From assembly GCA_029834535.1 (NCBI GenBank), contig JAQMWT010000689.1, positions 1 through 59,252 of the forward strand: a stretch of DNA of 59,252 nucleotides, given 5' to 3'. The stretch is from Chrysophaeum taylorii. Lineage: Eukaryota > Sar > Pelagophyceae > Pelagomonadales > Pelagomonadaceae. This document shows, one piece after another, positions 3,410 to 37,200 of the stretch. The notes under the pieces are model-generated. The model saw only the letters and a program-made list of their open reading frames with translations, was not told where the DNA came from and ran no database searches. The stretch's first letter is position 1, and every line of letters begins with the position of its first letter. Made by a program: the position numbers and the translations under genes.

Positions 3410-3414
3410 CACGA

Positions 3415-5235: not shown

Positions 5236-5840
5236 ACATCAAGCGATAGGAAGATGGGTGCAAAGTTCACTCTATATATATTCCCACTCCTACCATTCGT
5301 GGATTTGCCAATATGCTCGTGTGCGATCCACGACTCGATCGCATCCGACACTACTCAACTCGCGAATTGGCACGCGCCAATAACTTCACAGCGTACCAAA
5401 TCAGTTTTCTTTTGTCTTTGTCCCCTGACCTATGCTGTGATATCATCGCAAATACTATTCCAGCTGGAACATATCATACAATTTATAAACACTTGTGTCA
5501 GCTTGTTTACACTTGCGTATTAACGCTATCACCATCGTTTGACCCTGATCACGCTCCTCTAACCAAAAACTATAGGTCAACCTTCACAAATATATTCCCA
5601 CAGATATCCTTAACATTACACCAGAATTCCATTACATGTTCTATATCTCCAATAAAAACTCTTATGTTGTGATACTATCACTTCTAACCACGAACTTCCT
5701 TCTTCCATACTGATTCAGTAGCTCATGCTTCCTTCTAACATCTCATCCGCAGATATATCATCTCCTACTAAAGAAAACAAATACCCTTATAACGCCAAGA
5801 CAGCTCCATGAGAAGCATGCACCTTCGATAAGAAAGTCCA
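5236..5840 (+). pseudogene. Methyltransferase C-terminal half (motifs IX-X), copy A
   Basis: Continues the methyltransferase after the retroposon. Frame from 5,313 reads a target-recognition end (DPRLDRIRHYS), motif IX (STRELARANNF; family form RxLTxREAARLQ) and motif X (IIANTIPAGTYHTI; family IGNAVPxxxxxxI). Copy B has IANAIP here. The remainder to the integrase is a linker broken by frameshifts. With the first half, all diagnostic C5-methyltransferase motifs are present in order. Confidence 0.75.
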
Positions 5841-6847
5841 TGCCAGGGGCACCCGCATTTCGAGATGCGCAACAACGAGCTACCAATTTTCACAACATTC
5901 ACCATTCCAGTGATTCTCAACAAAAGCTGTTCAGGTTATTGCCAGTCCTGGACACCACCCATCTGACGTACCCTACCGTAAGTTCTGTGTGGATTGTACG
6001 ATTCATAAAAACGCTTTCTCATCCACATCACCTTACCAAGCAACCATCATTCGAAAAGTTTTTCAACCTGGTGAAGCTGGGTGTGACGGTGGTTACGTGT
6101 CCGTTCTCTCTGAATGGGGATCCTTTCGACATATCATTGTTTTCAAGTGTCTCATTTCTAAATTTCTGTTAGTGTACTTTTGTCGTAGCACTAACTCCAG
6201 CGAGTTTTGTAACGCCCTTGAGTTTGTCCGTAATTTTGTTCTACTTATGTTCATGTACAACTAAAACAATTTTATTGTGATTCCTTTAAACCCTATTTAT
6301 CCCAGCATGTTACAGCCCCTTCCGTGTGGAACATGGTATTAATATGTCCGCGTTCCCCTGACTTACATGTCTTTAATCATGAAGTCGAAGCCGCTGTTGG
6401 TCACATAGCCACTGCCGCGTCTACACGACTCAGGCATATGCTTAATGTATCCTATAAAGGTCACCCCTAACAGATCCGGCACACACTACCCGTGGGCTGT
6501 TACATGCTATCCAATCATATAATCTCCTCCCTAACGTTTCCCTCGAACGTATTTACAATAAAGTCCTAAGCCCCCAACAAGTTTTGTTAGACCAATGTAA
6601 TGTTCCCCAACAAGACTACCTCAAACCTTTTGGTTCTGTTTGTTATTTGCATTTGGAACCTAACGAATTTCACAAATATGAACCCCGATGTCGTCCTACA
6701 TCTACTTAGTGGTGCTAACGTTATAAACCCTTTAATAACACCCCATGTTAATCATTTAGCCGATGTTGTCCTTATCCTGAAAACGGTCAAGTCCGTGTTT
6801 CTCTAAACTGACTTTTCCTCATCTTATTTCTAAATCTCCTCCTGATT
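5841..6847 (+). pseudogene. copia integrase, copy A
   Basis: Matches the better preserved integrase of copy B (28,531 to 27,233). Fragments read PGEAGCDGGYVSVLSEWGSF, then the region around the second Asp (YCDSFKPYLS in copy B) and the third acidic position (NHEVEAAVGHIATAA), then the typical copia QDYLKPFGSVCYL block. Frames change several times (5,840-6,172; 5,989-6,264; 6,600-6,806), so it is inactive. It would insert the cDNA into chromosomes. Confidence 0.72.
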
Positions 6848-8953: not shown

Positions 8954-9090
8954 CTTGTCGCCCTGATTTATCCCAAAGCCTTAGTCGTTGCTCTCGAGGA
9001 ATGCATAATCCAGCATTTCTGCATGTTCAAGTACTAACAGGAACGCTCCGCTACTTGCGCTAGCCCGAAATTCGTAATCTTCGCCTCTGG
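8800..9090 (+). repeat. 145-bp tandem duplication at the RT/RNase H junction
   Basis: The segment from CCAATTGGCCTGTCGCC to CGCCTCTGG occurs twice in a row with about 5% divergence; the second begins near 8,946. Copy B has a single copy. The duplication adds stops and separates RT from RNase H in copy A. Confidence 0.85.
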
Positions 9091-9832
9091 TACTACTACT
9101 GGCTCTTCCTCTCTAATGGACCATCTTCGACTTCTTTTCGGTAATCGTACTGACATGGCCACCATGTTGGACTACACTAAAGAACAAGTTAATTCAGGTA
9201 ATTTTGATCCACTGGTCGCATTCGTTGATGCCGATAATGCACCTTCTTATGAACAAGACCGCAAACGTACAACCGGTTACGCTATCTTTTTGTTTGGTTC
9301 TCTCATCACTTGGAAGTCTAAGCTGCAACCTATTACAGCTACTTCTACGCATGAGAGTGAACTTATTGCCCTTAATATGTGCGCCGATGATGTGGTCTGG
9401 TTACGCAAATTGCTAACGGAAATGGCATTCGTTATAAATCCTCACTTCTATCTCCGCCAACCTTCGAGGAAAGGCCTGCTACTAGATTATGATGCTCACG
9501 ACAACCCTCTCCCATCGGACATGTCGTTCATACGTTACAGTCCTATACTTGGAGATTCGGCCTCTGCTATTCATCTATCTAATAATCCCGACAGCGCGAC
9601 TAAGGCTAAAGCTATCAGCACACGCTGGTTCCGTATACGCGACTACGTACAGTTAAAACGAATACGCCTACATCATGTTTCCGGTACCCATAATATCGCC
9701 GATGGATTTACCAAACCCTTTGGAGCTCCACTCTTCAGCAGATTTCGCACGTTACTCGGCTTACAACAACCCATAGCTCAACAAGATGGTCAATCATTGC
9801 CCTCCATTATGTCCGAAATGACTTTAAACTAA
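9091..9832 (+). CDS. copia RNase H, copy A
   Basis: The open frame of 238 aa from 9,116 shows the copia RNase H pattern: FVDADNAPSYEQDRKRTTGY (first Asp), WKSKLQPITATSTHESELIA (catalytic Glu), GDSASAIHLSNN (Asp) and the C-terminal HVSGTHNIADGFTKPFG, equivalent to the usual VxTxxQxADxLTKPL. It degrades the RNA strand during reverse transcription. In an intact element it is fused to RT; here the 145-bp duplication separates them. Confidence 0.88.
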
Positions 9833-9866
9833 CCCTGCTATGCGCAGGATACTGGCTTGCTAAAAT

Positions 9867-11455
9867 GTGAAATGCTACATAAAATGTGATGTGGAGATTC
9901 CTCTCATGATGAATCCCACTAAAAACAAAGATGCTGCGAGCCGACGCCACTCTACCATGAACCGTGGTCGCGGTGGTGGTATACTGTCACTGTCTCCACC
10001 TTTTCATGCTCTAACTCCAAGCGCTGCACCGACTAGTTCCCCTAATAACTAACTAACTTCAGACCTCTCCCGAGCATGGGAGCCAGGCCGGACCGACAGG
10101 AGCCAGTCCGGAATCACGGGCCAGTAGACGAGGAGCGCCGAAAGGTCGGTCGGCGGAGAGTGACCATCAAGCTTGTCGACCATCAAGCTTGTCGCCATGC
10201 GACGAGGAGACCGCGATGTGACTGACAACCAACTCGTCGATAACCTTCCGTCTTCGCCCCCCGGCCATACCCCGTCCCACTGCGAACGTTCCGGCTGCCA
10301 ACCGGCCCGCCCGGGAGGCGAATAGGTGCCAACCTACGCCGGGAGGGCGGCGTTCCCCTAATCGGAAACATAAACTATTTGTCGGTGGCTCAAGGACATT
10401 AATCTACGCCCGTGACGCCCAAGGCGCCCAAGGCAACTGCCCAACAACAGTCTAAATCGCAAGCAGCAAAGTCTGAGTATTTCCTGCTCAAACACGCTAA
10501 GTTTGACGTATTAGCGATGATGTCCGGGAACGTTACTGCTCTTGGTTCTTCGCCACCCAATTTTCTCATTCCGCAACATAAGGATCCCCAGTGCTGGCTT
10601 AAGTCTTTGCAGTAGCTGCTTACGGAAGCACAAAAGACAGAGTTTGTATATAACGCCCAATATCTTAGTTCATTGTTGTGCGTCAAAGCAAAGCGCATTC
10701 GAAACGCCCCCGCTATATCTCCTAATGAGGGGATACGCCTTCATCGCGTCCCACCGATTAAAGGGGTTGTCAAAGTACATGTGACGTGTACAAAGTGCTA
10801 CAATAAAACTGAGATGCCGGGCACACCAGTCGTGCTCATCATTTGTAATGAAGATGAACTTAAAACTGACAGGATTCGCCAAATTATTTAGGATCATCTC
10901 GCGTCTGAGCAACACGCATCGCACTGCTTTGGCGTACCACGCCCTTTCTTTTTGTTGATTTGTGTGCTATGCAATCTGTCACACCATTGGATAGCTTTAA
11001 TTCGCAACAGTCAGCAACCCTTCCAACTCTCTTGTTTTAATGATCCGGCTGCCCACATAAGAGCTATAATCCTCCGCCTTGGAAAGTCGATTGCGATTAA
11101 CAAGCAGCTCAAATAGGCAACCATGCAGACTGCAACATCCCTTAAAGTTGAAGCCTCTAAAATCGTTGTTAACCTTGACGATAACGCCATGCTCTTACTT
11201 CTGCTGCCCTTTATTTCGAGTGTAAATCTTGAGATTCTTGTAGCAGCCTGGTCTTTGTTACAGTCTGTTGAAGATAAAGTATGTGTAGTGACCAACCCTG
11301 ATGAGCTACTTAACGTGCTTGTCGAACGCTTCGTTAATGATGTTTCCCACCAATTTGACGTAACTTCTTCCGAGACGTTGCCGCCAATGCTTAATTATTT
11401 TCGTCAACTATCACTTCTTCGGACATCCCCCGTCCACAGATCAATCCTCTCTTGA
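9867..11455 (+). pseudogene. Extra 3' ORF (ORF3) of the copia element, copy A
   Basis: Homologue of the 349-aa open frame of copy B (24,771 to 23,722). Begins MKC...MNPTKNKDAASRRHS, a basic then Ser/Pro-rich start, followed by KSEYFLLKH...FDVLAMMSG and PNFLIPQHKDPQCWLKSLQ. It has internal stops near 10,614, 10,889 and 11,113 and is interrupted by a retroposon at 10,046. No family recognised. It occupies the place of an env-like third ORF but shows no signal peptide or transmembrane segment. The last codons (after about 11,415) already belong to repeat X. Confidence 0.65.
10046..10352 (-). mobile_element. (TTAG)n-tailed retroposon, copy S2, 5'-truncated
   Basis: Same family as S1 in reverse orientation. 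Duplicated target TTCCCCTAA lies at 10,037-10,045 and 10,353-10,361; copy B retains the empty site with one TTCCCCTAA (near 24,600). The copy lacks about the first 70 bp of the family and starts at CCGCCCTCCC, the 5' truncation expected of target-primed reverse transcription. A 17-bp internal tandem duplication (ACCATCAAGCTTGTCG) is at about 10,163-10,197. Confidence 0.88.
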
Positions 11456-14275: not shown

Positions 14276-14700
14276 GTGACCATCGGTTGTTTGGACACAG
14301 GCACGCTAACGTTTATGGTCGGACACATTTACAGGAAATGTGACGGACCGATATTTGCGACGACGATTGGAGTTGATGGAATGGCTGATGTCGCCTATAT
14401 TTGCCGCGAGATGGTCACCAAGTTGGCTAAGGATAAGCTGATTTTCGACCAAGGCGAGCTCCCAATTGCACGCACTCTCTATGGCTCGGGATTAAACACG
14501 ACGACCATCCATACATGGATTTCGATACGTATTGCTCTCGCGGACAACGTCGCAGCTCCCGTGGTCGCCATTAGGGCTGACACCAATCATTTGTTTCTGC
14601 TCGGAGCGCGAGACATTCGAGTACTGGGAGCCGTGGTGGACTACCCGCACGATCGAATTTCATTTCATCGGACACAGATTGCATGTTCGAAAACGGATGA
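14276..14700 (+). pseudogene. gypsy aspartic protease, copy 1
   Basis: TTIGVDGMADVAYICREM aligns with the retropepsin VDTGAxxSxI block; the catalytic Asp stays but the next residues are GM instead of TG. The second half (VVAIRADTNHLFLLGARDI followed by VLGAVVDY) corresponds to the ILGxDxL block. Copy 2 has the same DGM. The frame shifts after about 14,690. It would cleave the Gag-Pol precursor. Confidence 0.66.
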
Positions 14701-15530
14701 CGGTACAGGGTCGACGAGTGGATTCCCCCATCTTAACGTTTCGACCGACTTACGAGCGCAATCCTGTAATAGCACCGATCTACGGGAATCAGCACACAGC
14801 GAGGAGGCAAAGTCACAACTCGGTCGAATCCCGAATTTTCGCTCGTTTGTGCACTATTGAGAATCTCCATCGTCCGCCGCCAGAACGTGCGACAGTTTCG
14901 ACGACCCGGGGACCGTCCACCGTCATTCCCTCTCATGTTTTGAGCGATGCTGCACACGAAGTGGTCGCTTACGCGGCGCGCACGGCGAGAGTCGAGCCTG
15001 GTCGGACCTACAACGTGCCGGTCACTCTCTCACAGCCCTTGGAAGAAGGACAGGTCTTCGTCGCCACGTCTTCTGGATACGAACAATTAGGAGTAGTCGA
15101 TGGAGTGTGTTCTTCTTGCGAGGACCATGGCAAGTTATCCGCTCGAGTGGCCGCTTCCTCGACCGAAGATGTTCCGACCATTGTGACTCAAGGCGAGGTT
15201 CTTGCGCTCGGTGACATCGTTCGTTACCAAGACGAGTTAACGATATCTACGGTCGAAGAATTGACGAAAGATTGCCGAGCGAGCTACGACAAGGCCAGCC
15301 TGTCGTTCGCTGTTTCAGTCGCCAATCATATGACGCACTGCGATGCATCTCCCCCGCAAATGCTTTTGAGCACCGCGCAAGAGGATGCTCCCTCGGCCGA
15401 ACCGGCCACGTCTCCCCGCAAAAGACCGACTGACGATGACGATTTCGCCCAGCGGTCCGACGAAGAAGAGAAGAGGTGTCGAGAGATCACCGAAGGCGAG
15501 ATCCGCCAACGATTTGAAAAGGCTCAATGG
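14701..15530 (+). CDS. Linker with dUTPase-like/beta domain between protease and methyltransferase, gypsy copy 1
   Basis: Part of a 435-aa frame (14,532-15,839). The block VEPGRTYNVPVTLSQPLEEG, then VFVATSSGYEQLGVVDGV, then IVTQGEVLALGDIV resembles the post-protease beta domain found in many gypsy polyproteins. It is followed by an acidic hinge (PTDDDDFAQRSDEEEKRC). This whole region is absent from copy 2. Fold assignment is by pattern only. Confidence 0.5.
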
Positions 15531-16387
15531 CTGCCGATCACTTACCGCAAAGTTGAGATGCTGTTCAGCGGAGCCGGAGGCAGCACTTTGGGCCTCCAAC
15601 GAGCCAACGAGATGTGCGGGACGTCCTTTCGAGTCGTCTTAGCCCGCGATTCCTCGGACGCTGCCAATAAGATTCACCGAGCGAACTTTCCGAACGTCCC
15701 CGTGGTTCAACACACCCTCTGTGGCCGCTATACCACGACTCTGCGTTTAATCGCGACTTGTTTGCCCGAAGCGGAATGGTCGTCATCTCGATGTGCATCG
15801 CCTCGCCCCTCTGTGTACACTCTGCACTTTGCAACTTGACGTCCAGGGATGCCGGCAAAGGGGTAACGGCAACCCATTGGAATATGAAGCTGTAAAAAAT
15901 GGCTGGCTTCTTCATGTGGTTGATTGAGCAGGAATCCTCGATTATCTCCTACGTGGCGTGCCTTGCACCCATACGTGTACGTCGTCAATTTTTACGACAC
16001 CACGCCCAATCTGATGAGCTGTCGCGTGCGGTTGTTGGTCTCCAGCCACCCGCTGCATTTACGCGAGGCTCCCCAAACCTGCGCAAACATGCAACGAAAG
16101 TTCGCTGCAGATCTGGGTTACGCCGATGAACGACATTTGCTCCAGATGAACAACTTAGGCTCGTCCCGAGACGCGACGGACACGGCTTATACAGTCACGC
16201 GGGTTCCTCTTCGCTTAGGACCCCGTCGTTCGGATGCTCGGCCGTTGACTCTCAAAATGACCGCAGAGTTGCTCACGATGCCGATCGACTATGACTGGGC
16301 TGGCTTATCCAAGACCGCCTCGTTCAAACGCCTGGCGTCTATCGTGCCCCCATACACTCTCGCTATATTGGCACTCAATCTGCATAG
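15531..16387 (+). pseudogene. gypsy-encoded C5 cytosine methyltransferase, copy 1
   Basis: Motif I is clear: VEMLFSGAGGSTLGLQRA at 15,555-15,608, better than in the copia version, followed by RVVLARDSSDAANKIHRANF (motif II region). After a frameshift near 15,750, the motif IV position reads IASPLCVHSALCN (SPLC at 15,803-15,814), with Leu in place of the Pro before the catalytic Cys. A stop follows at about 15,894, then MAGFFMWLIEQE. Motif IX is PLTLKMTAELLTMP and X begins SIVPPYTLAIL before repeat X truncates it. It differs from the copia methyltransferase, so the domain was probably captured separately. Confidence 0.75.
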
Positions 16388-21800: not shown

Positions 21801-22206
21801 TGGAGAGATTTGACCCTCTCCCGGTACATGGTAGAGACTGCGTGCAGTCTTAGGCGTGTACAGACCATTCCGCTTGCCACATGCTACTACACAAGGTGGG
21901 GATTTAAGCCCTAACTCCTTAAGGACATTAGGTCCCATAGAAGCGTTTACACTGACAACGAGGAACGAAGCCGCTGTTAATTAAACAGAAAACCCCGTAC
22001 CTGACGGTACGCATCTGGAGGCCTACTCCATGTTGGAAAAGAGCTTCAGACTGGGTTCTTCATAGTCATGAAAATATAATTGCGGGAGTGTAAGGAAGGA
22101 AGGAAGGAAGGAACGAGGGAAAGCCGTATTACGGAGAGAAAATCCTCGTGTAGAGATCGGTGTGAAATGTTCCAGTGTCGCACACATAATAGTGAAGCTC
22201 TCTGGA
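21801..22206 (-). repeat. 3' LTR of copia copy B
   Basis: 406 bp, same ends as the 5' LTR (TCCAGAGAG to CTCTCCA). Differs by about 16 substitutions and two small indels, one in the AAGG microsatellite. The flank CCACC (minus strand) repeats at the outer edge of the 5' LTR. Confidence 0.93.
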
Positions 22207-22213
22207 CCCCCTC
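22207..22213 (-). promoter_or_regulatory. Polypurine tract of copia copy B
   Basis: GAGGGGG on the minus strand, immediately before the 3' LTR, the expected position of the plus-strand primer. Confidence 0.8.
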
Positions 22214-22323
22214 AACGTGTGAAAACGGTTTATGCATTTCAGACGTTCTTGAAGCGGAACTTGTGCAATATACATGAGAACAGTGAACAGTAGAACAAAC
22301 AACAACAGAACAGGACAAATTAA

Positions 22324-23113
22324 TTATGACGTCGAGCGTGTTGTGATGTTGCGCAAAGAAGCAGTATCGGTATCCACAACATCAGATGTGTGGTCCAATT
22401 CATCCTCGCTATTATCGTCCAGTTCCTTCAACTCTGGAGAAGACGAATTATGATCATCGGAGGATAGGTCGTTAGCAGTGTTGGTATTGTGCGTAGTCAT
22501 TGCATCACTCAAGGTGACCAAGGGTGACATAACAGACGAAAGGAAAGACATAGCAGCATCTGGTGTAAGAGCGCGTAGATCCAATGCAGGAATATCACGA
22601 TCATGAGCATCAGACATAGCTGTGTGGAGGTGATGAGCTGCTGCGTCGATTAGAACTCGCTGTGCCTCATTATACGTATCTGGAGGGAGCTGTCCACTAG
22701 ACGAGATAAGCGACCGAGAAATGATATGGACAAATACAGCAGTGGTCGGGATTATGGTGTTCTGATGCATTTGGAGACAAAATGTTACCTAACAAGGAAA
22801 CATGTTTGATGTTCTCGGTCACTTGGGTATTAAGAGTTTCGTAGGTTTCTTGCATCAATGCGAGAGAAGTTAGAGCAAGCGATAGTTGATGTTCTCGTGC
22901 CATCGATTGCTGTTCGGTGTTAGTGAGACGTAGAGATAAAGACCGAACCTCTTCTTTTAATTGGTGTAAGGATTCAGCCATATTGTCGTTAGCTTTATCT
23001 GGCGTGGGCTCAGCGGGTGGATTATCGATCGGCGCTGGTGACACATCTTCAGAAGAGGTATTATTAGAGAAGGTATCAATGATATGGGATGGGTAGCCAA
23101 CTTGGATTAACAC
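22324..23113 (-). CDS. Coiled-coil 3' ORF of copia copy B, frameshifted
   Basis: Two overlapping frames: 138 aa (23,113-22,697) and 148 aa (22,770-22,324), apparently one protein of about 260 aa broken by a shift near 22,780. SLHQLKEEVRSLSLRLTNTE and the following 50 residues are a good heptad coiled coil; the C-terminus is acidic and Ser-rich (ELKELDDNSEDELDHTSD). It lies between ORF3 and the polypurine tract. No family recognised. Copy A has lost this part. Confidence 0.6.
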
Positions 23114-23530
23114 GTTTTTTTGTCTCGAACGAGATTGGCAATCTTACGCGCCACTGGTTGCCGGTCGACGAGAAGAAGGGGGGCGTCGTTCGGTTTACCT
23201 TTGACATGAGGCGCTATCGCGTCCGACAGGCCATTTTCGACGAGTGGTTCGACTTCGCCCACGCGGTCAGCAGGGAGCAACCTTCCAAGTGGCTATTCCT
23301 TACCGGATATGTAAAGCTAGATGTTGCACTTTTCCTACCCAAGCACATCGACCATAACGATCCCGATCTGCACATCATCAGCATGACTCAATGGGGAGAA
23401 GATAAACTTGGTATACATCCTTATGGGGTTGAATTTAAAGGACAATCATCTATCCAGAGTAAAATTGACGACAATGTCAAGATCACTTTGTTTAGATTAG
23501 AAAATTTGTTGCCTACTCTCCTAAATGCTA
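23104..23530 (+). other. Foreign chimeric insertion in copia copy B (GC-rich exon-like piece plus inverted protease fragment)
   Basis: 23,308-23,525 matches the copia protease region (2,970-3,190) but in the opposite orientation to copy B. It is joined directly to a GC-rich 200-bp piece (23,104-23,307) of different composition reading EIGNLTRHWLPVDEKKGG and VRQAIFDEWFDFAHAV. The two form one open frame (23,089-23,538). The first part is unrecognised and could come from a host gene. Confidence 0.6.
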
Positions 23531-23539
23531 ATTGTTGAT

Positions 23540-24771
23540 TAGGTGGAAGTTGGCGAAAGTAGTGCAGTTGGCGGTACCGTCTCGGAAGAAGTTGCGTCAA
23601 GTTGATGAGAAACATCGTTAACAAAGCGTTCGATGAGCACGTTAAGTACCTCTTCGGGATTGGTAACTACGCAGGTTTTATCTTCCACAGATTGTAACAA
23701 AGACCAAGCTGCTACAAGAATCTAAAGATTTACACTCGAAATGAAGGGCAGCTGCAGTAAGAGCATGGTATTAGCGTCAGGGTCGACGAGGATTTTAGAA
23801 GCATCAACGTTAAGGGATGTTGCAGTCTGCATGATTGGCTCTTTGAGCAGCTTGTTGATAGCAATGGACTTTCCAAGACGGAGGATTATGGCTCTTATGT
23901 GGGCAGCTGGATCATTATAACAAGAGAGTTGGAAGGGATGCTGATTGTTGCGAATTAACGCTATCCCATGGTTCGACAAGTTACACATCACACAAATCAA
24001 CAGAAAGAAAGGGCGCGGTACATCGAAGCAGTGCGATGCATGTTGCTCAGACGCGAGATGATCCTCAATAATTTGGCGAATCCTGTCAGTTTTAAGCTCA
24101 TCTTCAGTACAGATGATGAGCGTAAGGGGTGTACCCGGCATGTCAGTTTTATTGTAACTTTTTGTACACGCCACATGTACTTTGACAAACCCTTTAATGG
24201 GTGGAAAGCGGTGAAAGCGAATACCTTCATTGGGTGATATAGCGGGGGCATTCCGAATGCGCTTTGCTTTGACGCACAGCAATGAACTAAGATATTGGAC
24301 GTTGTCCACAGACTCTGTCTGTTGTGCTTCGGTAAGCAGCTGCTGCAAAGACTTAAGCCAACACTGAGGATCCTCATGCTGAGGGATGAGAAAGTTCGGC
24401 GGGGATGCGCCAAGGGCGGATATTTTCCCTGACATCATCGCAAGTGCGTCAAATTTGCAATGTTTAAGCAGGAAATACTCGGACTTTGATGTTTGCGAGT
24501 TAGACGGTTGTTGGACAGTTGCCTTGGGTGCCTTAGGCGCAACGGGCGTAGATTGATGTCCTTGAGCCACCGACAAATAGGTCTGATGCTCCCGATTAGG
24601 GGAACTAGTCGGTGCAGCGCTTGGAGTTAGAGCATTAAAAGGTGGGGATAGTGACGGTGCACCACCACGACCACGGTTCAGGGTAGAATGGCGCCGGCTC
24701 GCAGCATCTTTGTTTTTAGTGGGATTCATCGTAAAAGGAATATCCACATCACATCTTTCATTGCACTTCAC
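23540..24771 (-). CDS. copia ORF3, unknown function, copy B
   Basis: 349 aa open to 23,722; homology with copy A runs on to about 23,545. N-terminus basic and Ser/Pro-rich; core contains KSEYFLLKHCKFDALAMMSG, PQCWLKSLQQLL, KRIRNAPAISPNEGIRFHRF, and two Cys pairs in copy A that are only partly kept. No transmembrane segment or signal peptide seen, so it is not an obvious envelope. Its conservation in both copies after RNase H makes it a true part of the element. It follows RNase H by about 80 bp. Confidence 0.7.
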
Positions 24772-24849
24772 ATTTTAGCGAGCCAGTATTCCTTTACATA
24801 GCAAGGTTAGTTTAAAGTCATTTCGGACATAATGAAGGGTAAGGATTAA

Positions 24850-25640
24850 CCATCTTGTTGAGCTATGGGTTGTGGTAAGCCGAGTAACGTGCGAAATCTG
24901 CTGAAGAGCGGAGCTCCAAAGGGTTAGTAACTCCATCGGCGATATTTTGGGTACCGGAAACATGACGTAGACGTATACGTTTTAACTGTACGTAGTCGCG
25001 AATACGGAACCAGCGTGTGCTGATAGCTTTGGCCTTAGTCGCACTGTCGGGATTTTTGGAAAGATGAATAGCAGAGGCAGAGTCTCGCAGAGTCTCCCAG
25101 TATAGGACTGTTACGTATGAACGACATGTCCGATAGGAGGGGATTATCGTGAGCATCATAGTCTAGTAGCAAGTCTTTCCCTGAAGGTTGGCGGAGATAG
25201 AAATGAGGATTTATAGCGAGTGCCATTTCTGTTAACAATTTGCGCAACCAGACCACATCATCGGCAAACATATTAAAGGCGATAAGTTCACTCTCGTGCG
25301 TAGAAGTAACTGTAATAGGCTGCAACTTAGACTTCCAAGTGATGAGAGAACCAAACAAAAAAGATAGCGTAACCGGTTGTAGACTTGCGGTCTTGTTCAT
25401 AAGAGGGTGCATTATCGGCATCGACGAACGCGACCAATGGATCAAAATTACCTGAATTAATTTGTTCTTTAGTGTAGTCCAACATGGTGACCATGTCGGT
25501 ACGATTACCGATAAGAAGTCGAAGATGGTCCATTAGAGAGGAAGAGCCAGAGTAGTACCAGAGGCGAAGATTGCGATTTTCGGGCTTGCGCAAGTAGCGG
25601 AGCGTTCCTGTTAGTACTTGAACTTGTAGAAAGGCTGGAC
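24850..25640 (-). pseudogene. copia RNase H, copy B
   Basis: FVDADNAPSYEQDRKSTTGY and TSTHESELIAF are present, then a small duplication near 25,085-25,100 shifts the frame, and GDSASAIHLSKN...IADGVTNPLE follows in the next frame (25,159 to 24,863). Otherwise like copy A, without the 145-bp duplication. Confidence 0.8.
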
Positions 25641-27121
25641 TATGCATTCCTCGAACTAAGACTTTGTGATAGATCGGGGCGACAGGCCAATTGGACAAAC
25701 GTGAGCTTGCCGGGTAGAGTGGAGAAGGTGTGGAGGATGAACTTGTCCATATCGGAAGATGGCTCTCCAGTTTTATACGTGGCTGATGGTGACATCGGTG
25801 TGGAGGTGGGACGTAACTGCATTAAAATGGGGTACTCTTCAAACAATGCGTCAAGTTTAGCCCGACAGTCCAGTGATATAGAGCCATCAGTTGTACGCGT
25901 TATGCGCATGCCTAGGAGAGTATGGACTTCCTCGAAGGTGTCGACGGAGTATTCCTTTTTCAGGGCTTGCTGGAACTCACGACGTAGAGTTTCCGAAGTA
26001 CAAGCAATGACGACGTCGTATACTGAGAGCGTGCAAATTATACATGTAGCGTCAGCTTGGACTTTAGCGTAAATGCATGTGTCTGTTCGACATCGTGTGT
26101 AGCCTAATGAATCAAAGAAGCCGTTTCTGGTTTGATTCCAAAGGGCAGGGCTCTGGCGCAATCCATAGAGAGATTTAAGTAGCTTTGGGAGACGGCGGCC
26201 TTGGTATTTAGTATCTTCGGGATCGAGAAGGTAAATGGCTTGTGGCAGTTTGACATAGACATGAGAATCGATGGGAGCTTGAACAAAAGCGTTAGGGACG
26301 TCGACATGGTAGACGGGAAGTCGCAGATGAGCTGCTAGCGCCAAAACACAACGGATGCCGGTGAGCTGTGCCATAGGGATGAATGTGTTGAAGAAATCGG
26401 TGCCCAGTGAGGCTAAGAATCCTCGTAGGACCAGGCGTGGTTTATGTTTAATGTACTGACCAGCAGCGTTGGTTTTTATACGTAGGACGAGGCGGGTGTC
26501 AATAGGCTTTGAGTTGACCATTGGCAGCGCTAGTTTAAAGCAGCCAAACTTAACAATATCAAAAATCTCCTTGGAGATGGCAGCAACATAAGCTTTGCGA
26601 TCAGCGTCTGAGAGACCTTTGAGGCAGTTCAACTCATATTCATCAATTTTGATATCTTTGGCTTGAATCTTGTATTCGTCCGAACCAGCCGTGCTGGGGT
26701 CATGAGTCGTCGTTAGATGAGTAATTGCGTAAGAAGCGACATTATCGTGCAGATGAGCGTAATCGAGATCTTCGACGAGTTGAACAACTAGTAGAGGAGC
26801 ATCACCAAGGTGGGCCTCAATGTAATGCGATTGCACGGTGATATAGTCTTCGATGGCGGAGAGATGAGGCTCGGAGGCACCATAAGCAGCGTCATTATGA
26901 TCCAAAATGGAGTGGGGCGTGAACAAAGCATAAACATATTGAGCGGGAGGAACTTGAAAGGCGTGAGCATGATCAGAAATTAAATGGACGAGAGCTTGAG
27001 GGAGGTGAAAGTCTGCAAGGTTGGCGTCGTCGCAGAAGTGAACATGAGGAGCATCAGGCGATGGGTGGCTATGGCTCCTATGACACATAACTGAAGAGGA
27101 CTGTGAGATCGCTTGGTGCAC
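25640..27121 (-). CDS. copia reverse transcriptase, copy B
   Basis: 493 aa, almost identical to the copy A protein. Carries DTRLVLRIKTNAAGQYIKHK, motif A VYHVDVPNAFVQAPI, LKSLYGLRQSPALWNQ and the active-site box as SVYD (26,015-26,026) in place of YVDD. Since both copies share this substitution, the parent element had it and was multiplied by trans-supplied RT, or by an RT tolerant of the change. RNase H follows in another frame. Confidence 0.87.
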   Translation of the reverse strand: MHQAISQSSSVMCHRSHSHPSPDAPHVHFCDDANLADFHLPQALVHLISDHAHAFQVPPAQYVYALFTPHSILDHNDAAYGASEPHLSAIEDYITVQSHYIEAHLGDAPLLVVQLVEDLDYAHLHDNVASYAITHLTTTHDPSTAGSDEYKIQAKDIKIDEYELNCLKGLSDADRKAYVAAISKEIFDIVKFGCFKLALPMVNSKPIDTRLVLRIKTNAAGQYIKHKPRLVLRGFLASLGTDFFNTFIPMAQLTGIRCVLALAAHLRLPVYHVDVPNAFVQAPIDSHVYVKLPQAIYLLDPEDTKYQGRRLPKLLKSLYGLRQSPALWNQTRNGFFDSLGYTRCRTDTCIYAKVQADATCIICTLSVYDVVIACTSETLRREFQQALKKEYSVDTFEEVHTLLGMRITRTTDGSISLDCRAKLDALFEEYPILMQLRPTSTPMSPSATYKTGEPSSDMDKFILHTFSTLPGKLTFVQLACRPDLSQSLSSRNA

Positions 27122-27232
27122 ATGGTGATGAAGGGATGGTGTAAATTCCCCCTCTGGAGGTATAGCCGTCCAGTGGATGCCATGAGCAAGATGAAGGGAG
27201 TGGAGGGTGGGGTCGCAGAAGGTTATGTACTG

Positions 27233-28593
27233 CTAGGAGAGGTCATACTTGAAGTCGGCAAGCGTACCACCGGCTTGTTTATAAGCGGCAACAGTAGGCG
27301 AGGCAACACGAGTAAGAACATCCTTGAGATTGGTTTTGCGACGAGGCTGAGGGTGATGAGGACCACGGGTGAGACGGAGGACATCCTGGGAATAGAGAGA
27401 CCGATAAGATGGTAAAAGTGGCAAAGTTTTGGAAGACACGTCAGATGTAGGTGTGGTGGCGGAAGTAGCGGGTGCAGAAGCAGCTGGAGCACATGCGGGA
27501 GCGGGAGAGGGAGCATGGAAATGAGAAGAAGAAGTCCCCCTCTCAAGGTCAATGTCGGTAGGCATAGCATTCCCCCTCTGCGCCGCATGATTGGGGGTGC
27601 TGTGAACAGGGAAGGGAATGTCGGGTGAAGGTGCGGGGGGTGGATGCTGTTCACAATCAGGAGGAAATTTAGAAATAAGATGAGGAAAAGTCAGTTTAGA
27701 GGAAACACGGACTTGACCGTTTTCAGGATTAAGGACAACATCGGCTAAATGATCAACATGGGGTGTTATTAAAGGCCTTATAACGTTAGCACCACATAAG
27801 TAGATGTAGGGACGACATCGGGGTTCATGTGTATGAAATTCGGTAGGTTCCAAATGCAGATAACAAACAGAACCAAAAGGTTTGAGGTAGTCCTGTTGGG
27901 GAACATTACATTGGTCTAATAAAACTTGTTGGGGACTTAGGACTTTATTGTAAATACGTTCGAGGGAAACATTACGGAGGAGATTATACGATTGGATGGC
28001 ATTTATAACAGCCCACGGGTAGTGTGGTGCCGGATCTGTTAGGGGGTGACCTTTATAGGATACATTAAGCATATGCCGGAGTCGTGTAGACGCGGCAGTG
28101 GCTATGTGACCAACAGCGGCTTCGACTTCATGATTAAAGACATGTAAGTAAGGGGGGGACGCGGACATGTTAATACCATGTTCCACCCGAAAGGGGGTTG
28201 TTGCATGCTGAGATAAATAGGGTTTAAAGGAATCACAATATAGTTGTTTGAGTTGTACGTGAACATACGTAGAGCAGAAATTGCGGACAAACTCAAGGGC
28301 GTTACATAATTCACTGGAGTTAGTGCTACGACAAAAGTACACTAACAAAAATTTAGAAATGAGACATTTGAAAACAATGATATGTCGAAAGGATCCCCAT
28401 TCAGAGAGAACGGACACGTAACCACCGTCACATACCCAGGCTTCACCAGGTTGAAAAACTTTTTCGAATGATGGTTGCTTGGTAAGGTGATGTGGATGAG
28501 GAAAGCATTTTTTATGAATCGTACAATCCACACCGAACTTACGGTAGGGTACGTCAGATGGGTGGTGTCCAGGACTGGCAATAACCTGAACAG
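27233..28593 (-). CDS. copia integrase, copy B
   Basis: The open frame of 432 aa from 28,531 covers the rve-type core and C-terminal extension. VCDGGYVSVLSEWGSFRHII holds the likely first acidic residue, LYCDSFKPYLS the second Asp, and NHEVEAAVGHIATAAS the Glu. The following LDQCNVPQQDYLKPFGSVCY is the copia-specific block after the core. The HHCC zinc finger upstream is not clear. The Pro/Ala-rich tail runs into RT. Confidence 0.78.
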
Positions 28594-28596
28594 CTT

Positions 28597-29838
28597 TTAT
28601 AGCTTGAGAATCACTAGAATGGTGGATGTTGTGAAAATTGGTGGCTCGTTGTTGCGCATCTCGAAATGCAAGGGTGCCTCTGGCATAAACTTTCTTATCG
28701 AAGGGCGCATGCTTCTCATGGAGCTGTCTTGGCGTTGTAAGAGGAATGTGTTTTTCTTTAGTAGGAGATGGTGTGTATCTGCGGATGAGGTGTTAGAGCG
28801 GAAGACATGAGCTACTGAATCGAGATGAAAAGATGGAAGTTCGTGGTTAGAAGCAGGATTATCACAACATGCGAGTTTTTTATTGGAGATGTAGAACACT
28901 GTAATGGAACTCTGGTGTAATAGTAAGGATGTATCTGTTGGCAATATACTTGTGAAGAAGGCTGACCTATAGTTTTTGGTTAGAGAGGCATGATCAGGGT
29001 CAAACGATGGTGATAGCGTTAATTTACGCAAGTCATAGACAAGCTGACACGAATGTTTATAAATTGTATGATATGTTCCAGCTGGAATAGCATTCGCGAT
29101 TATATCACAGCGTAGGTCCGGGGACAAAGACAGAAGAAAATTGATTTGGTGCGCTGTGAAGTTATTGGCGCGTGCCAATTCGCGAGTTGAGTAGTGTCGG
29201 GTGCGATCGAGTCGTGGATCGTACACGAGCATATTAGCAAATCCACGAATGGTAGGAGTAGGAGTGTATATGGAATGAACTTTGGCACCCATCTTCCTAT
29301 CGCTTGATGTAATAAAGCCCAGATATCTGCTTTGGGACAAATGTATGTCACTTAAAGCAAACATTTTATCGATAAATTCGAGATGATTTTCCTGAGGGTA
29401 GAAGACAAAAGAATCGTGAAATACAGGAGAAGTATAGGTGACCAGTGCTTGTACTAAACGGCGCGTGTCTTGATTTTCATTATTGTGATGGTATGCTTGG
29501 CAAAGCCAAAGAAAACCAGTGACAGGTTCGAGAGAAGCAGTCTTATCAATTCCGGCATCATGTGTTAGGACGATATAGGTTTCGCCAAGAGCATTTATAT
29601 GTGCCTGGTATTTAGAAGAGGAGTTAGAAACTGTTATGTCTCCGCCTGTGTGTCTTCCACCAGTGATGTAAATGATGGATGAAGTAGAGGGTTTATTTAA
29701 AAATAGCCTGTGAGATGGTTGGTGAGATTCGATAGTTGTAATACGAAAGGACACAGGTAGTGTGATAGATTTAGGGAATAAGCGTCCCATAATATTATAG
29801 AGGAGCACGAAAGCTTTGAGTTCAATAGGGGATCTCAT
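28597..29838 (-). CDS. Methyltransferase target-recognition insert, motifs IX-X and linker, copia copy B
   Basis: 413 aa, uninterrupted. Residues about 35-115 hold the 2OG-oxygenase-like blocks (IIYITGGRHTGGDITVSN; TASLEPVTGFLWLC). Then TPTIRGFANMLVYDPRLD (end of the target-recognition domain), motif IX RHYSTRELARANNF and motif X IIANAIPAGTYHTIYK. The last 120 residues are a linker to the integrase. Together with the frame at 30,762-30,025 this is a full set of C5-methyltransferase motifs, with roughly 330 residues between VIII and IX, unusually long. Confidence 0.8.
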   Translation of the reverse strand: MRSPIELKAFVLLYNIMGRLFPKSITLPVSFRITTIESHQPSHRLFLNKPSTSSIIYITGGRHTGGDITVSNSSSKYQAHINALGETYIVLTHDAGIDKTASLEPVTGFLWLCQAYHHNNENQDTRRLVQALVTYTSPVFHDSFVFYPQENHLEFIDKMFALSDIHLSQSRYLGFITSSDRKMGAKVHSIYTPTPTIRGFANMLVYDPRLDRTRHYSTRELARANNFTAHQINFLLSLSPDLRCDIIANAIPAGTYHTIYKHSCQLVYDLRKLTLSPSFDPDHASLTKNYRSAFFTSILPTDTSLLLHQSSITVFYISNKKLACCDNPASNHELPSFHLDSVAHVFRSNTSSADTHHLLLKKNTFLLQRQDSSMRSMRPSIRKFMPEAPLHFEMRNNEPPIFTTSTILVILKL

Positions 29839-30024
29839 GCAAGTGAGTTGTTTTCTTTAATTAGTCAAGAATCCCAGGCGAAAGATAGAAATGCCCTCCA
29901 TTTCATCTTGACTGGGATGTTCGACTGTTTTATTAGAGTGCAGACGAAGGAACAGCATAGTTAAGGTTTCAAGCTCAGTCACAGTTAAGCGCACGGATCC
30001 TGTACGACTGAAAATATTGTAGGT

Positions 30025-30762
30025 TTAAAGTGTGGACACGAATGGTATGTCAGGAAAGACCTGCGTCCAAGGTTCGTCGACTATTAACTTGCGACTGATG
30101 GAATTAGCGTGGTCTGCAACGTCAAGAAAGGAAGTGACTCGTTTATTAGGCCATGAAAGCAGATCAAGAGGGCCGGTGTTATATTTACGTGCAACGAGGA
30201 TCCATCTCTCTCTGGCTTGATAATCTCCACATAGATAGCATGGAAATCGGTCACATACATCCACCGTATAGTGCATCGTTGAGAAGATGAGACTAGCAAC
30301 TCGTATATGGTCTTCATACGATGCGGAGTGTGGTGGTGTCATTTCCATGAAAAGAACAAGCGGCTTTAAAAGCTCAAGTACACTTAGAGCACTTGGAAAC
30401 AAAGAATCATCCATATCACGCTCGAAGGTGGAAATGGATCTCCCATTGATTATGTTGCGATTTGTGCATGGTGATGTCAATTCCACTATATCGGTGTAAT
30501 ATCGTGCACGTTCAACGTCCGATGCTCGATGGAGATATGTCAGAAACTTAGGTAGGGATGGGAAAACTTCGATGGAATTACCAAAACGTCTTCGTAGCAT
30601 GTGCGTGATATTGTCGTCGCTCTCAACAAGAACTTTAACGTTGATGTTGATTTGCAAGTCATTAGAAGCGCAAGCCAAGAATGCAGGAGTGGACATCCCA
30701 GAGCAAAGTAGAGTTACAGTAGGTGTTCGTGAGCTAGGAGGCGTAGTTACTGTGTGAAGCAA
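30025..30762 (-). CDS. C5 cytosine methyltransferase, motifs I-VIII, copia copy B
   Basis: 245 aa. Same motifs as copy A: I (TLLCSGMSTPAF), II (VLVESDD), IV (TDIVELTSPCTNRN with Pro-Cys), VI (LVLFMEM), VIII (QARERWILVAR). Substitutions between copies fall outside these motifs (for example T to P after MEM, I to V in DVCD), which is what selection on the enzyme would leave, although the sample is two. A TAA at 30,025 ends the frame where copy A reads Pro-Lys. Expected activity: cytosine methylation, perhaps of element DNA, so that it escapes or directs host silencing; that role is inference. Confidence 0.87.
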   Translation of the reverse strand: MLHTVTTPPSSRTPTVTLLCSGMSTPAFLACASNDLQININVKVLVESDDNITHMLRRRFGNSIEVFPSLPKFLTYLHRASDVERARYYTDIVELTSPCTNRNIINGRSISTFERDMDDSLFPSALSVLELLKPLVLFMEMTPPHSASYEDHIRVASLIFSTMHYTVDVCDRFPCYLCGDYQARERWILVARKYNTGPLDLLSWPNKRVTSFLDVADHANSISRKLIVDEPWTQVFPDIPFVSTL

Positions 30763-30784
30763 ACGTGTGGTAACCTTGCGTCAT

Positions 30785-31871
30785 ACGGGAGGTGGGAAGT
30801 GCTTGCGTATGTAAGGCAGCTGCGAATGCTTTGACTCCAGGATGGTTTTAAGCCATGGGACGTAAATTACGCGTTCCATGAGGGTGGAATATAGTTTAAG
30901 CATTTCGCGTTGTTCATTAAAAGCACATAGTCTGAACTGTAGAGAGCGAAGTTCCATTTTACGCGCTTTTGCTTGTTGTAGCGAATAAATTGGTAGAGTA
31001 GGCAACAGGTTACTGAGTCTAAACAAAGTAAGCTTGACATTATCATCAATTTTACTCTGGATAGATGATTGTCCTTTAAATTCAACTCCATAGAGATGTA
31101 TACCAAGTTTATCTTCTCCCATTGAGTCATACTGATGATGTGCAGATCGGGATCGTTATGGTCGTTTTGCTTGGGTAGAAAAAGCGCAACGTCTAGCTTT
31201 ACATATCCCACATTTGGATGCTTTGGGAGAGCGGGAATGACGGTCCTTATAATCATAGCATGTGTGATTCTCTGCGTATCCGTAGCAGTCTGGATAGCAG
31301 GTGATAAGGACTCGGGTAGCTTTACGATGTGGATAGGATCAGCATAACGTTTAAAGTTAATTACATGTTGAGAAGCACATGTGTCAGCATATCCTGGCGT
31401 AGTCATTAGCGGCAAATTGTACTCGTTGTACAGTTTAAGCATTGTTGCATAACAGGCATGTGTTGAGCTTTGACCAAACACGTACTGTGTCATGAAACTT
31501 TGCGTTTGTTCGGAAGGCACAACGACGAGTGTAAAACCAGTGTTTAATTTTGGTAGCAACACAGGGGGATCTGTGCCATCTTCATTATCTTCGTTGGGTA
31601 GATTATTGGGGAGCTCAGAGTGCGAGGAAGTTTCCCGAGCTTGACGACGAACGATAGCATTCTGAGCTTTAGCATTTATGTGCTGCAATAGCGGCTGAGG
31701 GATGTTATCGATTTCATCATCTTTAATGGACAGAAAAGTGTGGAACATTTTCTCTGTATCAGCAGTCCCCCTCTGCTCCGCATCACTGGGGGACGCTTCA
31801 GGAGCAGATGTTTCAGTTTGATACTTTTCTTCTGAAACATGAGATTCCTTATCGGCTTCTAAGAGGTTCAC
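30785..31871 (-). CDS. Gag end and protease, copia copy B
   Basis: The open frame of 334 aa contains YADTCASQHVINFKRYAD, the protease active site with Asp at 31,383-31,385 and Cys replacing Gly of DTG. The C-terminal half of the protease passes into another frame (31,122 to 30,781), so one frameshift is present near 31,100. The domain ends shortly before the methyltransferase at 30,762. Confidence 0.72.
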
Positions 31872-33518
31872 ATGGTATTGGACATAGTATCAACTCGAGA
31901 TAAGTAGAGATGAACTTGGGTGGCTTCGTCAGGATCTAAGGACTGTGTCGAAGCTTGAGAAGCGGTTGTCCAGAGGGTACTCAGTAAGCTTTTCATTTCC
32001 CCCTGTACCATTTTAGAGTCGGTAGAGGGGTTGGGATTCGCTTCCTGTAATTTACCAAACAGGTGGCGAAGACGATCAACTTGATAAGTAGCCCGGTCCA
32101 TAAGAGACATATTAGAGCGTGCATTACGGTTAGAGGAAGGTGAGTAGACAGGACGATCGAAGCTGGTACCTTTGACGTTATAATTTGAAGGTGGACGATA
32201 GTACGACGTGTCACGAGTAAAATTGTCGATGCTTTGTCTTTTGCATTACGAAGCTTACGAGCGTTGAAGCCAGACTGTCCAGCTACAGTAGCTAACAACG
32301 AGTAAGCGTTGTTTAGAGAGTCGTGGGATTGATGAATAGTATCCATCAATAATACCTTAGGTGGCTTGGTAGCGGTAGTACCAGGGATGTAAGGGATCCA
32401 GGAAGCGGGTTTATCCAAGCGTCGGTTAGAGGAAAACTTTGTTTCATTGTATATCTTTAACAAGAACTCCAATAACGGACGAACGTCGTTAGGATCAACT
32501 AGCTTTAACAATTCAGGATCGTGAATCGAGTTGTTCCCAGCGCGTGTCTCGTAGAGTTTACACCATTCCAATAAAGATTGAGAATAGCGTTCGTGATCCG
32601 AGGGATTAGCATATTGACGGTAGATCTCCTCGTGAGCATTAAGAGTGATTATGGAGTTATTAAATTGGATTGATGCACCATCATTATTTAATTGCTTTGC
32701 CTGAGATTGGAAAGCAAGGAGTTGTTCGACAAATACATGGGCATACCAATTAACATTTAAAGACATTCGATTAAAATGAGATTCAAGCTCAGTAACATCT
32801 GTACAAGACACTGTCTCATAGTAATGGCAAGCTAAAAGCATTACTGCACGTAGTTTATTAGGATGTGCAGTATGTGCATATATCTTCTTTAATCGAGGCC
32901 ACATAGCGAGTGCTGGTTTGTCTTGTGATTCCAGATTAAAAAATGTGTACAAGAAACCAGCATAAGTTTCGCAGTGTTTGATCCAGTCGGTATTAGAGAG
33001 ACCTGTAAAGGATATGTTAGTTAGAGAAGAATCATACACAATTGATATAGGGAGTCGGGTATCTATTAGACCGAGGACACGTTTAACATCCTCATTTAAT
33101 TCGGGACGAACGAGATTGTATGACTCTTGGCAATAAAGTCGTTCGAGATTGTTACGGACATCAACTGTTAGTTGATGTGATGAGTTGACGTGCCAAGTTT
33201 TAAATGATCAGGCAGGGCATCTTCATCAGGTAAGTTTAAATCGATTACTTGTTCAGCTTTCCATTGAGCGAAGATGATATCAACTTCTTGTTCAAGAAGT
33301 TGATTATACTCCGGAGCATTCCGGGTGTAAGCTTCATATGAATCGAAGCAGAATAACGCGCCCACATATGGACTTGTCATATGCCTGCGAAGCACCTCAA
33401 TTTGCAAGCTCACATTGGTTGAGTTGTCTTGGAAACGCAATCCTGCGTTAATTTTATCCGCGAGGATTTGCTCTAGTTTGTAGATATCCGTAGTGGATAT
33501 TGGTGTTTGTTTTGACAT
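31868..33518 (-). pseudogene. copia Gag, copy B
   Basis: Starts MSKQTPIST at 33,518; open for 116 aa, then a frameshift near 33,175, a 348-aa frame from 33,039, and another shift near 32,225 into the frame ending at 31,868. Otherwise well preserved. N-terminal part has a helical EQxLADKxNAGL region, the central part is Asn/Gln-rich, the C-terminal part is Ser/Thr-rich with acidic stretches. It should form the particle that packages element RNA. No CCHC knuckle seen. Confidence 0.72.
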
Positions 33519-33995
33519 GATTGCGACCTATTAAGGAATAGGTTATAGGATTGATAGACATATTCGGCACATAAGAATGAAGGGTTTCTCAAGTGCGGGT
33601 TCTATGTACAGCACGCTATTTTAAACGTGGGCTTATTTACAAGACCAAACAAATCAACATGCTATTTAAAAACAGGATGACTTGAGACTGAAGAATGAAT
33701 TAATTCTCGAGCAGTCAGTCTTTTGTTGGGGAATAGAAGAAGAAAAAAAAAAACGTACAAGTTTCCGCGGCTTGTATAGGAAAAATTTTAATTTTATTAG
33801 CTATGCGAGTGCATATGACCAGTGACCAACCCAACTCGGCCACAAACCAAATTAACTGGTGGGCATATACCGTCACATAACAAATATGTACAGTAGACCA
33901 CCGCCAAACACATTGTCGCATTGTACTCGTGATCAGGCGTAAATTGATCACTCCATTTATACGTACAACACAGTTGGGCTGACACACCTACGTAT
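33519..33995 (-). other. Untranslated leader of copia copy B
   Basis: About 475 bp between primer site and Gag ATG, homologous to 347-816. No gene or known RNA motif seen. Contains an A-rich run near 33,742. Confidence 0.6.
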
Positions 33996-34009
33996 CTGGG
34001 CCCATAACC
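33996..34009 (-). promoter_or_regulatory. Primer-binding site of copia copy B
   Basis: GGTTATGGGCCCAG on the minus strand, adjacent to the LTR and identical to copy A. Complementary to the iMet tRNA anticodon arm, implying priming by a cleaved half-tRNA. Confidence 0.85.
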
Positions 34010-34412
34010 TGGAGAGATTTGACCCTCTCCGGGTACATGGTAGAGACTGCGTGCAGTCTTAGGCGTGTACAGACCATTCCGCTTGCCACATGCTACTACA
34101 CAAGGTAGGGCTTTAAGTCCTAACTCCTTAAGGACATTAGGTCCCATAGAAGCGTTTACACTGACAACGAGGAACGAAGCCTCTGTTAATTAAACAGAAA
34201 GCCCCGTACCTGACGGTACGCACCTGGAGGCCTACTCCATGTTGGAAAAGAACTTCATACTGGGTTCTTCATCGTCATGAAAAGTATAATTGCGGAAGGG
34301 TAAGGAAGGAAGGAAGGAACGAGGGAAAGCCGTATTACGGAGAGAAAACCCTCGTGTAGAGATAGGTGTGAAATGTTCCAGTGTCGCACGCATAATAGTG
34401 TAGCTCTCTGGA
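34010..34412 (-). repeat. 5' LTR of copia copy B
   Basis: 403 bp, from TCCAGAGAGCT to AATCTCTCCA (minus strand). Ends are fixed by the target duplication outside and the primer site inside. It starts TC rather than the usual TG; the 3' LTR does too. Imperfect terminal inverted repeat TCCAGAGAG/TGGAGAGAT. An AAGG microsatellite lies inside. Confidence 0.93.
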
Positions 34413-34417
34413 GGTGG

Positions 34418-37199: not shown

Positions 37200-37200
37200 C

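Follow-up and report, generated by a model that had tools for sequence, protein, structure and literature searches.

Ty1/copia retrotransposons of the pelagophyte alga Chrysophaeum taylorii with a predicted C5-cytosine methyltransferase domain ahead of the integrase

Organization of the copia elements

We analysed a 59,252-base window from Chrysophaeum taylorii, a pelagophyte and stramenopile alga, comprising the whole of contig C689 of the assembly (70.8 Mb, 697 contigs) in which all genome searches were made. The window carries two copies, A and B, of a long terminal repeat (LTR) retrotransposon with a C5-cytosine DNA methyltransferase (DNMT)-like domain in its coding region (Table 1). Hereafter, C numbers denote contigs of the genome, L numbers denote loci or sequences cut from it, and the window family comprises copies A and B and their kin. 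Judged by their sequence features, both copies are Ty1/copia (Pseudoviridae) elements. In B, the integrase (IN) lies upstream of the reverse transcriptase (RT; Pfam RVT_2), which is the copia order and is common to L040, L055 and L056, and the open reading frame (ORF) containing the integrase core also returned a Pfam match to SH3_retrovirus (E 1.3e-3, below the curated cut-off).

The LTR pair of B is identical at 386 of 407 aligned columns, the differences comprising 8 transitions, 8 transversions and 5 gap columns. The primer-binding site (GGTTATGGGCCCAG) reads as an apparent complement of the initiator tRNA-Met anticodon arm; a half-tRNA primer of this type is known from Drosophila copia. 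The reverse complement of this 14-mer occurs 549 times in the genome with both strands summed, of which a few may be tRNA genes, against 0 occurrences of the reversed control.

Table 1. Features of copia elements A and B and of a gypsy-related fragment in the window
Feature	Position	Strand	Basis or remark
Copia element B, whole, 12,612 bp	21801..34412	-	LTR pair and 5-bp target-site duplication
Target-site duplication CCACC of B	34413-34417 and 21796-21800		5 bp on both sides
5' LTR of B, 403 bp	34010..34412	-	
3' LTR of B, 406 bp	21801..22206	-	
Primer-binding site GGTTATGGGCCCAG of B	33996..34009	-	Sequence; adjoins 5' LTR
gag region of B, broken frames	31993..33527	-	ORFs 33168-33527 and 31993-33207; Retrotran_gag_2 at only E 0.14
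Protease active-site-like DTCASQH of B	31365..31385	-	Motif only; no Pfam match
In-frame UGA (UGA CGC) of B	30781..30783	-	Separates gag-protease frame from DNMT-IN frame
C5-methyltransferase-like domain of B	29040..30780	-	Motifs; end approximate
Integrase core (rve) of B	28148..28453	-	Pfam rve E 1.1e-4, ORF 27233-28792, below curated cut-off
Copia-type reverse transcriptase (RVT_2) of B	25832..26518	-	Pfam E 8e-37
Putative RNase H-like region of B	24863..25532	-	Copia RNase H-like motifs in ORF translations, by eye
Polypurine tract GAGGGGG of B	22207..22213	-	Sequence; before 3' LTR
Copia element A	11..11390	+	Cut off by contig start; pieces align to B at 86-94 % identity
DNMT of A, motifs I-VIII, 314-aa open frame	3397..4341	+	96 % identical to B over shared part
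Dispersed repeat, ~366 bp, within DNMT of A	4870..5235	+	Between motifs VIII and IX
Motifs IX and X of A (RELAR, ANTIPAG)	5361..5468	+	Beyond the insert
Gypsy-related fragment, partial DNMT module (motifs I-II)	14496..15839	+	Pfam DNA_methylase E 4.7e-4, 20.1 bits (cut-off 22)

Methyltransferase motifs in the window copies

Read on the minus strand from position 30780 with stops kept, the domain of B contains LLCSG (motif I, 30711-30697), ESDD (II, 30624-30613), SPC (IV, 30474-30466), MEM with the Glu (VI, 30348-30340), QARER (VIII, 30219-30205), RELAR (IX, 29184-29170) and NAIPAG (X, 29094-29077). In A, motifs I, II, IV, VI and VIII start at 3466, 3553, 3703, 3829 and 3958, while motifs IX and X start at 5361 and 5448 in a different frame. 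The succession I, II, IV, VI, VIII, IX, X, with Pro-Cys, Glu and QxRxR, is that of PF00145-type enzymes. An earlier, sequence-only reading of this DNA had described a copia element with a C5-methyltransferase-like domain, motifs I-X in order, before the integrase; this is borne out, and purifying selection (see below) can be added to it. The placement of the domain between protease and integrase likewise holds, with the protease known here by motif only. The statement that the catalytic motifs are identical in A and B is correct for Pro-Cys, Glu and QARER, but the flank of motif VI (EMTSPH in A, EMTPPH in B) and motif X (ANTIPAG in A, ANAIPAG in B) differ. That the window copies could make a whole enzyme did not hold up, as both are broken: in B the frame is interrupted by stops at residues 252 and 308, and in A it is disrupted near 4320-4341 as well as by the insert listed in Table 1.

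Homology to C5-methyltransferases

The sequence-only reading had named a Pfam DNA_methylase search of the two frames as a check, with the lack of a significant match counting as refutation. The matches were indeed insignificant (E 0.32 and 0.28 for the two frames; ~11 bits against a cut-off of 22), and phrog_116 (DNA methyltransferase) was matched at E 0.1 by B and 0.008 by A. This outcome is, however, overruled by relatives of the domain, and it is because these give significant matches that we regard the identity of the window domain as significant.

P0001, an MMETSP transcript product with 42 % identity, matches phrog_116 at 3e-8 and PF00145 at 4.4e-4 (20.2 bits, below the cut-off), and phrog_116 is also matched by open-frame copies of the window family (L041, 1.8e-4; L050, 4.7e-4; L040, 1.1e-3). 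A second copia family, C96, encodes a protease-like motif (DGGAS), DNMT, IN and RT within one open frame of 1952 aa. Its DNMT (L055) passes the PF00145 cut-off (32.1 bits vs 22, 1.1e-7), with 38.6 bits for its relative L045, and matches phrog_363 (8.6e-9) and TIGR00675 (2.6e-8, which does not reach the cut-off of that model). The third family, C42 (L056), shows 48 % identity over the DNMT. The order DNMT-IN-RT is common to all three families, and a protease-like motif lies upstream of the DNMT in the window and C96 families.

For comparisons between families, we used A1, an alignment of six rows, and A5, a profile of the window and C42 families and P0001 without any C96 row. A5 retrieved the C96 DNMT from 918 targets at 1.2e-6, whereas 900 shuffled sequences gave 0.2 at best, and hhalign aligned the window-side profile to C96 (E 3.9e-4), the alignment spanning motifs II-X in 461 columns. 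L040 matched C96 by blastp (5e-16) in a region that takes in the last part of the DNMT and the integrase. Among the A1 rows, the best PF00145 value was 6.5e-10, and Pro-Cys, Glu and the last Arg of motif VIII were invariant in 6/6. A profile search of the PDB with the C96 rows included returned 17 chains at E up to 1, 16 of which were C5-methyltransferases (best 0.0048).

Alongside the insignificant window frames, several results weigh against this assignment. Motif VI reads EMT where ENV is usual. The hhalign match between the window side and C96 carries a probability of only 35 %, and the C42-family DNMT reached only 0.051 against phrog_116. No DNA_methylase row was returned by Pfam for L050, L040, L041, L042 or L056, and the phrogs scan gave no match for the whole long frames of L051 and L049, two of the five open-frame copies submitted. 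With A5 alone, the sole PDB chain up to E 10 was a ribosomal protein (0.29), and the structure prediction for the domain, which is of poor quality (pLDDT 45), fits many Rossmann folds, among which methyltransferases do not stand out. Scores of this kind for the window copies, together with the A5 search of the PDB, are what would be expected if a chance string of motifs had arisen in a structural spacer that is no methyltransferase, but the II-X homology to C96 (itself above the PF00145 cut-off), the phrog_116 matches, the motif order and the selection on the domain leave this explanation scarcely credible, and we rejected it on the hhalign, phrogs and A5-C96 results. On sequence comparison, the window-family domain is a divergent C5-methyltransferase homologue, not a member at the Pfam cut-off.

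Queried as a single sequence, the C96 DNMT retrieved no methyltransferase from the PDB, and the NCBIfam scan returned none for P0001, L050 and L056. P0001 was the sole relative found in the protein database. Pattern searches for DNMT relatives gave 2, 5 and 158 matches in IMG/VR and 14 in GTDB genomes, none of which tblastn confirmed.

A DNMT2-like tRNA enzyme was rejected as a candidate: hhalign against 15 DNMT2 proteins gave E 0.0037 at 9 % probability, and DNMT2 proteins scored like shuffles against A5. The hhalign match to the host's other methyltransferase was also weak. A host C5-methyltransferase gene lies on C621 (L002, L052), with an open frame of 2086 aa matching PF00145 at 2.1e-17, and is presumably DNMT5-like.

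Copy number, conservation and selection

The window family is abundant, with at least 150 matching places in the genome: all 150 scored, of 945 candidates, match at 71-100 % identity, although duplicate contigs (C25/C521, C10/C297) may have caused a few loci to be counted twice. Thirty loci were extracted (L009-L038, L009 being window B), and 12 of them keep motifs I-X in one frame. The C96 family returned at least 89 matches, from the 78 scored of 772 candidates. By eye, some RVT_2 matches follow a DNMT match at a distance of ~4 kb, downstream on the same contig and strand, as in C338 and C523 (window family) and in C42 and C127 (C42 family). The genome may also hold copia elements without a DNMT, the RVT_2 matches having been checked in part.

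Selection was assessed in 13 open-frame copies (78 pairs; 45 for the integrase), a set that does not include L025, L031 and L033 from the 12 loci open from I to X; L031 and L033 coincide with L049 and L050. Pooled ratios of nonsynonymous to synonymous differences (pN/pS) were 0.063 for motifs I-VIII, 0.103 for the target-recognition region and 0.135 for IX-X, giving 0.096 for the whole DNMT, compared with 0.035 for the integrase and 0.352 for the linker after the domain. As only open copies entered the test, absolute values are biased downward, but the domain and linker values being contrasted come from the same frames. For the domain of L050 vs L040, dN/dS was 0.058 at a dS of 0.95, older pairs being near saturation. 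By these sequence measures, the DNMT domain is under strong purifying selection. Three features of the DNMT-bearing retrotransposons of de Mendoza et al. (2018) are seen here as well: the domain lies inside the retroelement coding region, is conserved across copies and evolves under purifying selection.

Alternatively, the domain may have lost catalysis and owe its retention to cofactor or nucleic-acid binding or to a scaffolding role. The divergent motif VI and the weak family scores would agree with such a loss, as would a gypsy family (see below) that by eye lacks a clear Glu at VI. Yet motif IV SPC and the motif VI Glu are present in 38/38 ORFs and motif VIII QARER in 34/37 (counts that cover pattern-fitting ORFs only, some loci being counted twice), and selection is stronger on motifs I-VIII than on the rest of the domain, such that we consider lost catalysis improbable.

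The UGA junction and expression

In all 38 rows compared (37 distinct places), the DNMT frame is preceded by UGA followed by C, the next codon being CGC in 36 and CAC in 2. The gag-protease frame runs in phase into this UGA in 36/38 rows, the exceptions being window A and L022. In the C42 family (L056), the junction reads UGA CUA and the upstream frame is open over the 34 codons available. UGA-C, and above all UGA-CUA, are leaky stop contexts. The first Met after the UGA falls within motif I in window B, L040 and L050 and beyond motif I in L041. Because a conserved in-frame UGA-C precedes the domain, the DNMT is probably made by UGA readthrough as the first domain of Pol. P0001 is itself the product of a transcript.

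Against readthrough, no stable RNA structure was found 3' of the UGA in five copies (z -0.8 to 0.7, from plain shuffles with pseudoknots ignored); such a structure is not required by all readthrough signals. A precedent for the bypass of a stop codon is Tca2 of Candida albicans, whose gag and pol are likewise parted by an in-frame UGA, although the junction sequence alone gave no readthrough in yeast; no DNMT is mentioned for Tca2 (PMC2194720).

The C96 loci L053, L054 and L055 have gag in another frame directly upstream, with an overlap of 37 nt, an arrangement suggesting frameshifting instead of UGA readthrough in this family.

Possible substrates of the enzyme

We searched for a mutational footprint of 5-methylcytosine in 34 aligned copies (968 single-copy changes). 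C>T changes were not clearly in excess at CpG (53/7196 at CpG vs 180/29342 elsewhere, ratio 1.2, P = 0.25), in a test that has no positive control that 5-methylcytosine leaves a mutational trace in this alga. CpG is hardly depleted, with a mean observed/expected ratio of 0.94 in the DNMT region of the element, 0.94-1.02 in copia elements and 1.09-1.46 in the other (non-copia) stretches measured. The sequence-only reading had raised the idea of an element that methylates its own or host DNA. Taken as durable CG methylation of the element itself, the simplest idea, this is unsupported because no CpG footprint is present, and we rejected it as the leading explanation.

Methylation of particle cDNA, of non-CG sites or of RNA fits these data. 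We rank cDNA first because the domain would travel with IN and RT; a similar cDNA-type action has been proposed for DIRS elements (PMC5890265). Our preferred reading, to which we assign a probability of about 0.6, is that C. taylorii harbours an abundant Ty1/copia clan whose Pol carries a captured C5-cytosine methyltransferase, predicted to be an enzyme, ahead of the integrase. Ribosomes would pass the UGA at a low rate, placing the methyltransferase at the head of Pol (DNMT-IN-RT-RNase H), and it would be packaged with the replication enzymes in the particle. There, it would act on the element's own nucleic acid, most likely on new cDNA before or at integration, and could protect the cDNA against nucleases or sensors of the host, or determine the chromatin at the insertion. 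The module would have been captured once, prior to the split of the window, C42 and C96 families.

Two alternatives accept a genuine methyltransferase and differ in its substrate. The first, that it modifies RNA (genomic RNA or the tRNA primer) and not DNA, would account for the missing CpG footprint, and the element appears to be primed by an initiator-tRNA half; in yeast, moreover, SymbioLINE-Dnmt produced no DNA methylation, an outcome that its authors call inconclusive, and RNA methylation has been raised for it (PMC5890265). The affinity to DNMT2 reported above is, however, just weak and general, and we regard an RNA substrate as unlikely. In the second, the target of the domain is CG in host chromosomal DNA, and the host methylome would be shaped by it. 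SymbioDIRS-Dnmt3 domains do methylate CG de novo in yeast (PMC5890265), and the number of matching places in the genome is in line with such a role, but the CpG ratios, in copia elements and other stretches alike, and the lack of a clear C>T excess at CpG make it highly improbable.

Comparison with known methyltransferase-bearing retroelements

De Mendoza et al. (2018) described DNMTs in LINE and DIRS elements of Symbiodinium and in Gypsy elements of Klebsormidium (PMC5890265), which agrees with the sequence-only reading that such LTR elements are known from few lineages. Among the closest parallels is KnitGypsy-Dnmt3 of Klebsormidium nitens, likewise an LTR element with a DNMT in the Pol ORF, several copies and purifying selection (its own Ka/Ks < 0.2), although it is Gypsy rather than copia, of Dnmt3 type, in a charophyte host and with fewer copies than the Symbiodinium elements (PMC5890265). 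SymbioDIRS-Dnmt3 and SymbioLINE-Dnmt resemble the C. taylorii elements in having hundreds of DNMT-bearing copies per genome in several families, but they are DIRS and LINE elements, and Symbiodinium copia is stated to be without a DNMT domain; SymbioLINE-Dnmt is moreover CG-poor, unlike the C. taylorii copia elements (PMC5890265).

One sentence of a 2025 paper places DNMT3 'embedded within ... LTR Copia and DIRS families', citing the 2018 paper; it thus names copia with a DNMT, yet the LTR element of the cited work is Gypsy, and the main text contains no terms beginning pelago, stramenopile or ochrophyt (PMC12344493). A 2019 opinion paper lists C5 enzymes in the Ty3/Gypsy and DIRS clades and names stramenopiles among the hosts of elements with N6-adenine or C5 enzymes, pooled (PMC6338049). 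In a survey of Ectocarpus, a DNA transposon is reported to carry a methyltransferase of N4/N6 type, unlike the copia C5 domain (PMC12477816), and a survey of DNMTs in SAR lineages, in the parts available, shows none inside a retroelement (PMC9998398). The main text of the C. taylorii genome paper has no terms beginning 'transpos' or 'repeat' (PMC10366177). Among the titles and abstract starts listed by our searches of open-licence literature, we found no DNMT-bearing copia element in a stramenopile. The present elements add the copia superfamily to the known DNMT-bearing retrotransposons (LINE, DIRS, Gypsy). They perhaps also represent a new host group for C5 enzymes in retroelements, though this group may not be wholly new because stramenopiles are named in PMC6338049.

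Retroelements that bear their hosts' silencing enzyme are a paradox known from few lineages. The stramenopile copia case, with high copy number, at least three families and selection on the DNMT near that on the integrase, makes it testable why selection keeps the enzyme. The genome was built with Oxford Nanopore (ONT) and PacBio reads (PMC10366177), and nanopore reads therefore exist.

A gypsy family with a partial module and other repeats

The window also contains gypsy elements at 14220-16384 and 35721-41048, the latter with RVT_1, RNase H, H2C2 and rve matches. The gypsy-related fragment with a partial DNMT module (Table 1) matches phrog_116 at E 2.1e-6, and its flanks share 75-78 % identity with the gypsy element at 35.7-36.7 kb, which is without the I-IV part. 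In the genome, all 150 places scored, of 747 candidates, match the module, which is a lower bound, and in 14 of the 69 RVT_1 matches compared (of 152), such a match precedes the RT by ~1.9 kb. Another gypsy copy, L057, scores above the PF00145 cut-off (26.5 bits) and contains SPPC, whereas by eye it shows no clear Glu at VI. From these motifs, the gypsy module may be changed or inactive, and its presence suggests that capture of such modules may recur within one genome.

More tentatively, and with less confidence than in the copia reading itself, C. taylorii could host a guild of methyltransferase-bearing LTR elements from two superfamilies, with several hundred copies: at least three copia families that trace back to one ancient capture, plus a gypsy family whose module is separate and altered. 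The copia enzyme would be made only on UGA readthrough, as the first Pol domain, in two of the families and would work within the particle, with cDNA or RNA and not chromosomal CG as its substrate; this would be a recurrent means by which retroelements mark copies of themselves to pass a host barrier. We consider this broader picture possible but doubtful.

The insert in the DNMT of A is 98 % identical to 52775-53140 and recurs at 21090-21469 and 10042-10350 in the window self-comparison. It belongs to an unclassified dispersed repeat of ~370 bp that sits inside other elements and is found, whole or in part, at 4870-5235, 10042-10350, 13771-13843, 21089-21472, 52775-53140, 55987-56167 and 58356-58536. 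Copy A also carries a 146-bp direct tandem duplication (8798-9089) within its RT/RNase H part. Within the 3' part of B, an inverted second piece of the gag-protease region (23305-23519, 91 % to 30995-31208) is a sign of rearrangement or nested insertion. Elsewhere in the window, self-comparison revealed tandem-like repeats at 44232-44631 and 51691-52252 that are mutually inverted.

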